Notes under the pieces: model-generated
Databases searched by the model: none
What the model was told of the DNA's origin: nothing
Seen by the model: only the letters and a program-made list of their open reading frames with translations
Part shown: in pieces, positions 22,775 through 25,204 of the stretch
How the letters are laid out: each line of letters begins with the position of its first letter
Position numbering within the stretch: the stretch's first letter is position 1
Position numbers and translations under genes: made by a program
Assembly (NCBI GenBank): GCA_024710875.1
Contig: JANJTX010000186.1
Coordinates: 1-48,155, forward strand
Reading direction: 5' to 3'
Length of the DNA: 48,155 nucleotides
From: Anaerolineales bacterium
GTDB lineage: Bacteria > Chloroflexota > Anaerolineae > Anaerolineales > UBA11579

Positions 22775-22981
22775 GTAGGGGCGTAGCATGCTACGCCCAA
22801 TCTTAGTCAAAGGGCAGGCTTGTCGCCGCCTGCCCACAAACAGCCTTGCCACCGCACCGTAGGGGTCGAGCTTAGCTCGGCCCCTACAAACACCACAGGC
22901 AACTTTAGCATTTCACAATTATCCGGCCACCAGTTTCCCCTCTCGATAAAAATCGTAGGGGCGACCGGCGGTCGCCCCTAC
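22775..22981. repeat. Array of GTAGGGG palindromic repeats between convergent genes
   Basis: The array holds GTAGGGGCGTAGCATGCTAC (from 22775, with a 20-bp perfect palindrome at 22779-22798), a 29-bp copy at 22859-22887 with one arm mismatch and a TTAGCTCG centre, and a 27-bp copy at 22955-22981 (GTAGGGGCGACC, 3-bp centre, inverted arm). A related GGGCAGGC/GCCTGCCC hairpin lies at 22812-22835. Outer bases are conserved while the inner arms differ but stay complementary. The rest of the 22657-23012 gap holds no convincing gene. Confidence 0.85.
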
Positions 22982-23012: not shown

Positions 23013-23894
23013 CTACGACCATTCATTCACCAGCGCAATCAACTTATTCAACATCGTCACATCGTGCAGGGTAATCACCCGCCCCATCCCCAGCACATCC
23101 GCCACCGTGCATTCCAAAATCGTGCCATCCGTCAGCGTAATCTGCTCGTTTTCCGGGGCGCTGCGCTTCAGATAGGCCAGCAGGTTCTTGTCCTTAATCA
23201 CCCCTTCCACCGCTTTACCCTCGCTCGCCTTGCTTAAGTTCAACTTCTCGCCGGCCGCCTTGTTAAACAGAATCAGATGGCCGCCCGGGTCCACCGCCAG
23301 AATCGGGTCGCGCACGGCGTGGATAATCGCCTGCAACACTACCCACTCGCTGCGGGTCTGGGTGTAGGCCACCGCGTTGCGAATCGCCAGGGCGGCCTGT
23401 TCGGCAATCGGCCCCAGCACATTGTTGTAGTCTTCATTAAACGCATTCGGCTCGGTGTGCGTCAGCGTGAAAATGCCGCGCACCTGCTTGCCCTCCAGAA
23501 TCGGCACGCTGATGGCCGAGCGCGTCAGCAGTCGGTCGCCGGGGAAATCCGCCCAGCGTTCATCGTCCTTGGTATCCAGCACCACGGCAAATTTCCTGTG
23601 CTCGTACACCCAACCAGCGATGCCTTCACGCATCACGGTTTCCACCACCGGCGTCTTGATTTCCGGCGGCAGTTCCTGGCGGGCGATGATGCTGCGCAGG
23701 ACATGCCCCTGCTCATTGAACAAAAAGATGCTGCCCTCGCTCGCCCCGGCGATTTTCACCGTATGCTTCAACACCCGCCCCAGCACTTCATCCAGCTCCA
23801 GCGAGGAAGAAAATTCCTTGGAAACCTCAAACAACAGGCGCACCCAGGTCTGGGCCTGCGCTTCCAATCTGCTCAGCGGGTCGGCTTTGGTCAT
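23013..23894 (-). CDS. GAF-PAS sensory protein without output domain
   Basis: The 293-residue protein has a short N-terminal helix and a GAF domain at about 20-175 (SKEFSSSLELDEVLGRVLKH, GIAGWVYEHRK, SAISVPILEGKQVRGIFTL). A linker helix and a PAS-like domain follow at about 185-285 (DPILAVDPGGHLILFNKAAG to VITLHDVTMLNKL). In related sensor kinases the HDVT...L segment leads straight into the dimerisation/histidine domain, but here the protein stops nine residues later. It may be a stand-alone sensor or a truncated kinase. AAGGAG lies 5 nt or so before the ATG, and a TGTATAAT box lies at 23920-23927 (complement). The 3' end abuts the repeat island. Confidence 0.9.
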   Translation of the reverse strand: MTKADPLSRLEAQAQTWVRLLFEVSKEFSSSLELDEVLGRVLKHTVKIAGASEGSIFLFNEQGHVLRSIIARQELPPEIKTPVVETVMREGIAGWVYEHRKFAVVLDTKDDERWADFPGDRLLTRSAISVPILEGKQVRGIFTLTHTEPNAFNEDYNNVLGPIAEQAALAIRNAVAYTQTRSEWVVLQAIIHAVRDPILAVDPGGHLILFNKAAGEKLNLSKASEGKAVEGVIKDKNLLAYLKRSAPENEQITLTDGTILECTVADVLGMGRVITLHDVTMLNKLIALVNEWS

Positions 23895-23952: not shown

Positions 23953-25047
23953 TCAGCCGGCGGCTCTGCGCCGCCGCGTCGCCCGCGCCCGGCTGTGGTT
24001 GGCCTCCAGCAATTTGGCGATGTTATTCATCTCGCCCAGCACCGCAATCGTACCGCCGGTAGCCGCCATCGCCGCCGCCGGCGGGTGAAAATCGGTTTGC
24101 GCCCCGTGCTGCCACAGCACCACACTCACATCAAAACGCGTTTCAATTTCGCTGAAGGTCAGTCCATCCAGCACGCAATTGGGGTTCACCTCCAACCGTG
24201 CCAGGTTCATCGGCTGGCCTTGAATCGTAATCGGGTGGGTGATTTCCATGCCGGCTGCCGCCGCCGCAAAGGAGGGCGCCGAAATCGCCGAGGCGCTCAA
24301 AGCCGTAAACCCGAACTGTTTTTCAATCGCCGCCGCGAAATCATAGTCAAAAATTCGCACCACCACCTCAATTTCAGGGTTCATCACGCGCGCCTTGACC
24401 GCGATCTGCAAATTCAGCGAATCGTTCTGGGTACACAGCAAAATCGCCCGCGCCCGCCGCACCCCGGCGGCTTCCAGCGTGGTCTCACGGGTGGCGTCAT
24501 CCACAATCACCGGCACATCCAGCGCCTGGGCCTGGGTCAGCAGGTCGGCCTGCGGGTCCTCCTCCACCACCACAATCGAACGCCCAATCGAGTGCAGGCT
24601 CAACATCGCCTGAAAACCCAGATGCCCCAGCCCCACCAGAATCACATGGTTATTATGCATACTTGCCACGGCCATCGCCCACTCCTTGCCGCGTGTGCGG
24701 CGGTTAAAGAACAAAGCCCCGAAGTCTGCCACGCCCTGCGCCAGCAGCACAAAGCCAATCAGCGGCATCAGAAAAAAGAACGCCTGCAAATACGGCTCTT
24801 CAGGAAATTCCACAATCGGCTGCAAAAAGGTCAGGCCGAGCGCATGGTACACCCCTTCGGCCGGGCTATCCAGCGCGCTGGGCGTGTTGCGCGCCAGCCC
24901 GTAATACAGCAGTCCCCCGCCAAAAAACGCCAGCCCGAACAGGAACAGCGGCGCGGCGAACTCACGCAGCAGCAGCACCGAGTCGCGCCAGGTAGCCTGC
25001 ACCCGCCGCACCAGTCCCGCCCAGCCAGAAAAGCGCTTGGTCTTCAT
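23953..25047 (-). CDS. K+-channel-like membrane protein with RCK (TrkA-N/TrkA-C) domains and a degenerate pore
   Basis: The product is 364 residues long. Hydrophobic helices at about 30-52 and 88-112 flank a pore-loop-like segment (about 66-83). A Rossmann RCK domain follows (about 133-250, nucleotide loop VGLGHLG, acidic EED at 162-164), then a TrkA-C-like domain (about 265-350). The layout is that of MthK-type channels, but the filter TVGYGD is absent; the same place reads LTFLQPIVEFP. It may conduct something else, be non-conducting, or act as a regulatory subunit. The start at 25047 is chosen because it lies 7 nt after a TATAAT box. A longer frame to 25371 runs antisense to the lipoprotein gene and is unlikely. 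Confidence 0.88.
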   Translation of the reverse strand: MKTKRFSGWAGLVRRVQATWRDSVLLLREFAAPLFLFGLAFFGGGLLYYGLARNTPSALDSPAEGVYHALGLTFLQPIVEFPEEPYLQAFFFLMPLIGFVLLAQGVADFGALFFNRRTRGKEWAMAVASMHNNHVILVGLGHLGFQAMLSLHSIGRSIVVVEEDPQADLLTQAQALDVPVIVDDATRETTLEAAGVRRARAILLCTQNDSLNLQIAVKARVMNPEIEVVVRIFDYDFAAAIEKQFGFTALSASAISAPSFAAAAAGMEITHPITIQGQPMNLARLEVNPNCVLDGLTFSEIETRFDVSVVLWQHGAQTDFHPPAAAMAATGGTIAVLGEMNNIAKLLEANHSRARATRRRRAAG

Positions 25048-25054
25048 CTCACAG

Positions 25055-25060
25055 ATTATA
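25055..25060 (-). promoter_or_regulatory. -10 box of a leaderless transcript for the RCK protein
   Basis: A perfect TATAAT on the minus strand ends 7 nt before the ATG at 25047, and no Shine-Dalgarno is present. The expected first transcribed base is at or next to the start codon. No -35 consensus is visible at 16-18 bp. Confidence 0.6.
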
Positions 25061-25204
25061 CGCTGACCAAACATCGATACAGGATGGAACGGCAACGACT
25101 CTCGGACATATGACCCTAGTCCCTCCATCACTTCAGGCATACAGTAAAGGGGGCAGCCCGCACCTGCCCGCGACTTAACCTCGCTACGGCATTCGGAGGC
25201 CGCT

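Follow-up and report, generated by a model that had tools for sequence, protein, structure and literature searches.

A large family of RCK channel-like proteins in Chloroflexota and Planctomycetota that lack the K+ selectivity filter

To our knowledge, bacterial RCK-gated pores are with few exceptions K+ systems, and the 2TM channels known to have a replaced filter, NirBac and NaKTs, amount to a few isolated genes. The reference points among the K+ systems are MthK (2TM-RCK) and GsuK (2TM-RCK-RCK), the latter responding to ADP and NAD+ (PMC3510474). NirBac, a non-selective relative of KirBac, lets Li+, Na+, K+ and Rb+ pass equally well (PMC4607889), and NaKTs, a 2TM channel from Tsukamurella with the filter LPMGNGPLSP, is non-selective and activated by Ca2+; its authors reported no relatives that share this filter (PMC5052707). 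The plant protein CASTOR is an RCK-gated Ca2+ channel that conducts through a filter, AD265SGNHA, that is not of the TVGYG type (PMC6697748), and the BacNav and CavMr channels have side-chain filters such as TLEGWVD (PMC7041947).

The gene considered here lies in a 48,155-nucleotide stretch of DNA from an Anaerolineales bacterium (contig JANJTX010000186.1 of assembly GCA_024710875.1), which in its entirety we call the window. It is a 364-amino-acid open frame on the minus strand (25047-23953), and the features located below are on that strand as well. Open frame, Pfam matches and relatives together mark 23953..25047 as a 2TM + RCK channel-like gene with, in the predicted structure, the architecture of MthK: an outer membrane helix M1 (residues 31-52, 24892..24957), a pore helix (residues 62-74, 24826..24864) followed by a re-entrant loop (residues 75-84), an inner helix M2 (residues 85-114, 24706..24795), the RCK N-lobe (TrkA_N, residues 135-243, 24319..24645; Pfam E 1.2e-20) and an RCK C-lobe seen in Pfam as a weak TrkA_C match (residues 282-348, 24004..24204). 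A first-pass annotation had proposed just this two-helix plus RCK layout of the MthK type, and Pfam, the predicted structure and Foldseek all agree with it. It had also pointed to LTFLQPIVEFP in place of a TVGYGD-type filter, and this segment is indeed found at residues 72-82, with no TVGYG in the protein. Our preferred reading, held with moderate confidence, is that the protein would be an RCK-gated, tetrameric pore-loop cation channel that is not selective for K+, that has a side-chain (Gln/Glu) filter, and that feeds SpoIIE signalling.

Several features set the protein apart from other candidates. The AlphaFold2 models place only an N-terminal helix and M1 ahead of the pore, and the voltage-sensor domain of BacNav and CaV channels is absent. 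By Pfam the cytoplasmic domain is an RCK and not the Kir domain of NirBac and KirBac. Unlike the soluble TrkA/KtrA regulators, the protein has a predicted membrane pore domain of its own that matches those of channels. Neither Pfam nor NCBIfam has a curated family that names it: Ion_trans_2 (PF07885) had no match at E 0.01 in the window protein or in 49 relatives, and NCBIfam returned for the window protein only TrkA and Kef models, far under their cut-offs.

The structural evidence comes from single-chain AlphaFold2 models built from 5 sequences, with pLDDT 70 for the whole protein and 77 for the membrane part, which counts somewhat against the channel reading. The whole-protein model has a long first helix, a pore helix at 62-73, a loop at 74-84, M2 at 85-114 and an RCK fold; the membrane-part model has helices at 7-29, 31-52, 62-74 and 85-132, with a pLDDT of ~85 in the pore helix. 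MthK and GsuK head the Foldseek search with the whole model (E 4.5e-15), VIA matches MthK across residues 28-352 with Z 16.9, and the family profile (36-347) aligns full-length with the MthK chain (26-332), making these two channels the best whole-length match in both sequence and structure. With the membrane part, 50 of the 50 structural neighbours listed are pore-loop cation channels (GsuK, Kir, NaK, NaChBac, CNG and Kv), at Foldseek E-values of at least 0.06. Superpositions of this part cover 97 residues of GsuK at 2.2 A (Z 10.6), 90 of NaChBac at 1.9 A, 90 of KATP at 2.0 A and 102 of NaK at 2.7 A. The sequence profile of this part matched nothing in the PDB but Kv4 and KCNQ pores, and these weakly (E 0.39-2.5), with the alignment running through the filter. 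A helical hairpin that is not a pore was also considered and is ruled out by these same structural neighbours. The annotation would have been undone by a model in which residues 66-83 were not a pore loop; the pore helix and re-entrant loop found there, and the neighbours just described, bear it out.

The window protein belongs to a large family of filterless RCK channel-like proteins in Chloroflexota and Planctomycetota. Full-length relatives at E <= 1e-30 are present in 110 of 396 genomes of the window's class, and a phylum-wide search matched 89 of 400 genomes at E <= 1e-15. The nearest two relatives (L001 and L002, from Anaerolineae/Chloroflexi metagenome-assembled genomes) are ~70% identical; many others stand near 50% and others near 35%, and in some lineages the protein has a second RCK domain (~600 amino acids). 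In the phylum of locus L004, labelled Planctomycetota, a profile search found the family in 38 of 294 genomes at E <= 1e-30; none of the 19 copies examined has the K+ filter, its position being taken by Glu in 17 and by Gln in 2. In the phylum of a Desulfobacterales locus (247 genomes), the matches examined were mostly ordinary TVGYGE/TVGFGE channels, so the family profile does not itself select for filter loss. One canonical-lineage Desulfobacterota RCK channel (L172) has its filter deleted (TLTPATPVSKTP), apparently a one-off in the sample. In one genome (G019, locus L050) two genes of the filterless family form a tandem pair, which suggests possible hetero-oligomers. Two Streptomyces plasmid proteins (L208:1310-3271 and L207:1232-3277) have the order RCK - 2TM - RCK and a pore segment without the K+ filter (LLDLFAIGDPA in L208, which is annotated just as an NAD-binding protein). 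Spread of the family on plasmids was considered and set aside, the plasmid search having given Streptomyces RCK matches alone, none of them full-length.

Within the family the replaced filter (LQPIVEFP in the window protein, residues 75-82, 24802..24825) follows the pattern [L/F/M]-[Q/E/N]-x-x-x-x-[F/W/Y/L]-P in alignments of the relatives. In the 122 relatives without the filter, the residue at position 76 is Gln in 75, Glu in 40 and Asn in 5; P82 is present in 119, P95 of M2 in 115, the M2 glycine G98 in 110 and W123 in 116, and a TxGYG/TxGFG filter occurs in none, the window protein reading LQPIVE at that place. Ranked by entropy over 345 columns, P82 is the 6th, W123 the 11th and P95 the 17th most conserved. 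Relatives from 70% down to ~30% identity retain the same segment, and conservation over such distances is more than chance would give; the annotation's question of whether the segment is shared across a family can thus be answered in the affirmative. It had also raised a one-off decayed copy. The missing TVGYG filter would fit a decaying, pseudogene-like former K+ channel, but the frame is open, the protein is conserved in 122 relatives from two phyla, and a motif is conserved inside the very segment that would be decaying; these data contradict decay, which we regard as hardly credible.

That the protein could still select K+ through an unrelated filter is a different matter. Its nearest body plan is that of K+ channels, and TMEM175 is K+-selective without a P-loop filter (PMC7176437). 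Nonetheless, every TVGYG position has been lost while relatives with canonical TVGYGE still exist and group apart: a tree of 75 proteins has a 100/100 branch with the canonical-filter sequences to one side and the filterless Chloroflexota and Planctomycetota proteins to the other. As an unrooted topology, this fits a single change of filter type. Furthermore, those superfamily members with replaced filters that have been characterised either lack selectivity or select Ca2+ (PMC4607889, PMC5052707, PMC6697748). We therefore consider retained K+ selectivity very improbable, and the annotation's proposal that K+ selectivity has probably been lost appears well founded on sequence and precedent.

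A MAFFT alignment with MthK and an HMMER alignment with Kv4 both place P82 opposite the GYGDxxP proline and G98 opposite the hinge glycine of M2 (G83 in MthK). They differ by one in the register of Q76, which falls on V60 of MthK in the former and on the first filter glycine of Kv4 in the latter. Glutamate receptors and NaV/CaV channels also owe their selectivity to a Q/E/N site at the pore-helix tip, a parallel that we offer as analogy only. The family resembles the BacNav and CavMr channels in having a putative side-chain filter just past the pore helix, some relatives reading LTGEPTLDWP or VLESPTDVP; unlike these channels it has no voltage sensor, has an RCK and shares no common sequence family, and the likeness of motif is a lead only. 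It shares with NirBac the prokaryotic 2TM plan with a wholly replaced P-loop filter; NirBac differs in its Kir-type cytoplasmic domain and few known genes, as compared with RCK domains and >100 members here. NaKTs likewise has a 2TM pore and a non-canonical, Pro-containing filter, although of a different sequence. With plant CASTOR, POLLUX and DMI1 the family has in common an RCK-gated pore without TVGYG and a polar or acidic residue near the filter start; each CASTOR subunit, however, comprises four TM helices and a pair of RCK domains, as against one RCK in the window protein, and the CASTOR domain PF06241 (Castor_Poll_mid) is absent from the window protein and matches 3 of 49 members, with E-values of 0.0016 and above, giving no usable sequence relation. 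MthK and GsuK share with the family the outer helix, pore helix, re-entrant loop, hinge-glycine inner helix and two-lobed RCK, and the family departs from them in lacking the TVGYG/TLGFG filter and the Ca2+ ligands of MthK, and in having the conserved Pro in M2 and a conserved Trp in the linker.

In the mechanism that we infer, the protein would be one subunit of a tetramer with the body plan of MthK and GsuK, in which the backbone-carbonyl TVGYG filter has given way to a short loop: a ring of four Gln at the tips of the pore helices (Glu in many relatives, Asn in few), then the near-invariant Pro. Binding of a nucleotide-type ligand, perhaps NAD(H), ADP/ATP or a cyclic dinucleotide, to the RCK ring would expand or contract it and so pull M2 at the hinge glycine, and the pore would open to cations without K+ selectivity, to Na+ and possibly to Ca2+ in the Glu forms. 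A SpoIIE-type phosphatase pathway might then sense or reset either the ion flux or the state of the RCK. Arguing for this channel are the fold matches, the conserved Q/E/N-Pro motif, the 100/100 clade split, the operon linkage described below and the precedents of NirBac, NaKTs and CASTOR. Residues 77-81, however, vary between relatives, in contrast to most working filters.

A conserved GxGxxG loop and an acidic residue are typical of nucleotide-binding RCK domains, and the family keeps both, as GLGHLG at 139-144 and E162 at the end of beta-2. The annotation had noted the loop, as VGLGHLG (residues 138-144), together with remaining acidic residues, and took ligand sensing to be kept. The part of this that concerns a nucleotide-type RCK stands, with E162 and D184 well conserved and sensing of that kind plausible. 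The MthK Ca2+ ligands D184, E210 and E212 (MthK numbering), on the other hand, correspond to Cys/Ala, Arg and Phe in the family (MAFFT), so a preserved Ca2+ sensor is unsupported and MthK-like Ca2+ sensing is rejected. Taken with the response to ADP and NAD+ of GsuK, which is the nearest structure with two RCK domains and a plausible model here, these residues make a nucleotide a more likely ligand than Ca2+.

In the window a GAF + PAS sensor-like protein (Pfam; 23013..23894) is encoded 58 bp downstream of the channel gene, and the channel copy at L002 is also followed by a GAF/PAS protein, 70% identical to that of the window. A consensus scan places a terminator-like hairpin after this gene (22955..22981), terminators in the region being no more numerous than in shuffled sequence, and the two genes likely form a unit that ends there. 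At the other end (25050-25070, minus strand) a TATAAT hexamer stands 7 bases ahead of the ATG, with no clear ribosome-binding site; a leaderless transcript would fit this position, which a promoter scan did not call as a full promoter. More widely, a small P-loop NTPase gene lies 3′ of the channel gene in 28 Chloroflexota loci, with a SpoIIE phosphatase gene 5′ in 24 of them and the gene ends mostly overlapping or abutting; such loci span several families, with relatives down to ~35% identity with the window protein, and at L056 and L061 an extra gene separates SpoIIE from the channel. The window genome has its SpoIIE (57%) and P-loop (53%) genes adjacent on another contig (C162:7678-8758; L141/L143), with no channel gene between them, unlike the related families. 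In 10 genomes that form one Planctomycetota clade, the channel gene is followed directly by a gene for a SpoIIE fused with an AAA/STAND NTPase and repeats, a neighbour that other Planctomycetota copies lack; these fusions are open frames of ~1100-1260 amino acids (L187, L188, L195, L199, L202 and L162-L171). A role in anti-phage defence was considered and rejected, PADLOC matching none of the channel, SpoIIE, P-loop, SpoIIE-STAND and GAF/PAS proteins.

A linked signalling phosphatase would be no less expected if the protein were a non-conducting, membrane-anchored RCK sensor with a structural or force-transmitting pore domain, informing the SpoIIE pathway or other partners of nucleotide state or membrane tension. 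Such a sensor is the main rival to the channel, possible though on the unlikely side. It would leave loop 77-81 free to vary, and it accords with the tight SpoIIE and P-loop NTPase operons and with the GAF/PAS sensor protein that follows the window copy; yet a mere anchor would not need the pore helix, hinge glycine, loop Pro and polar Q/E/N ring that are kept across two phyla. In one Chloroflexota family (L076, L077, L078, L080 and L084) the channel gene overlaps the 3′ end of a gene that, by reading of its sequence, encodes an antiporter-RCK protein. This fits a regulatory subunit of another cation transporter, for example a CPA-type antiporter with an RCK, in a mixed RCK ring, as does the window genome's single antiporter-RCK protein (Na_H_Exchanger + TrkA_N in Pfam) and its lack of any Ion_trans_2 channel. 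We think this improbable, however, as the overlap is limited to one family in the sample, no transporter neighbour recurs elsewhere, and the antiporter of the window genome is on a different contig.

Replaced filters are already known from 2TM channels; what appears undescribed is a bacterial RCK-gated family as large as this one that has this motif and is linked to a phosphatase. A literature search limited mostly to openly available papers found no description of such a family or of SpoIIE-RCK operons. Returning to the channel that we favour, one can imagine a more far-reaching version, which we consider rather doubtful as a whole: that these are widespread bacterial Na+/Ca2+-type channels, RCK-gated and with a Gln/Glu side-chain filter, that provide the ionic input to a SpoIIE phosphatase partner-switch and are encoded beside the phosphatase itself. 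With >100 members in two phyla and the Q/E/N-Pro motif, the family offers a natural series for how a K+ channel scaffold acquires other selectivity, and through the recurrent SpoIIE operon bacterial ion channels would gain a concrete partner in signalling, one that could be tested in culturable Planctomycetota and Chloroflexota.
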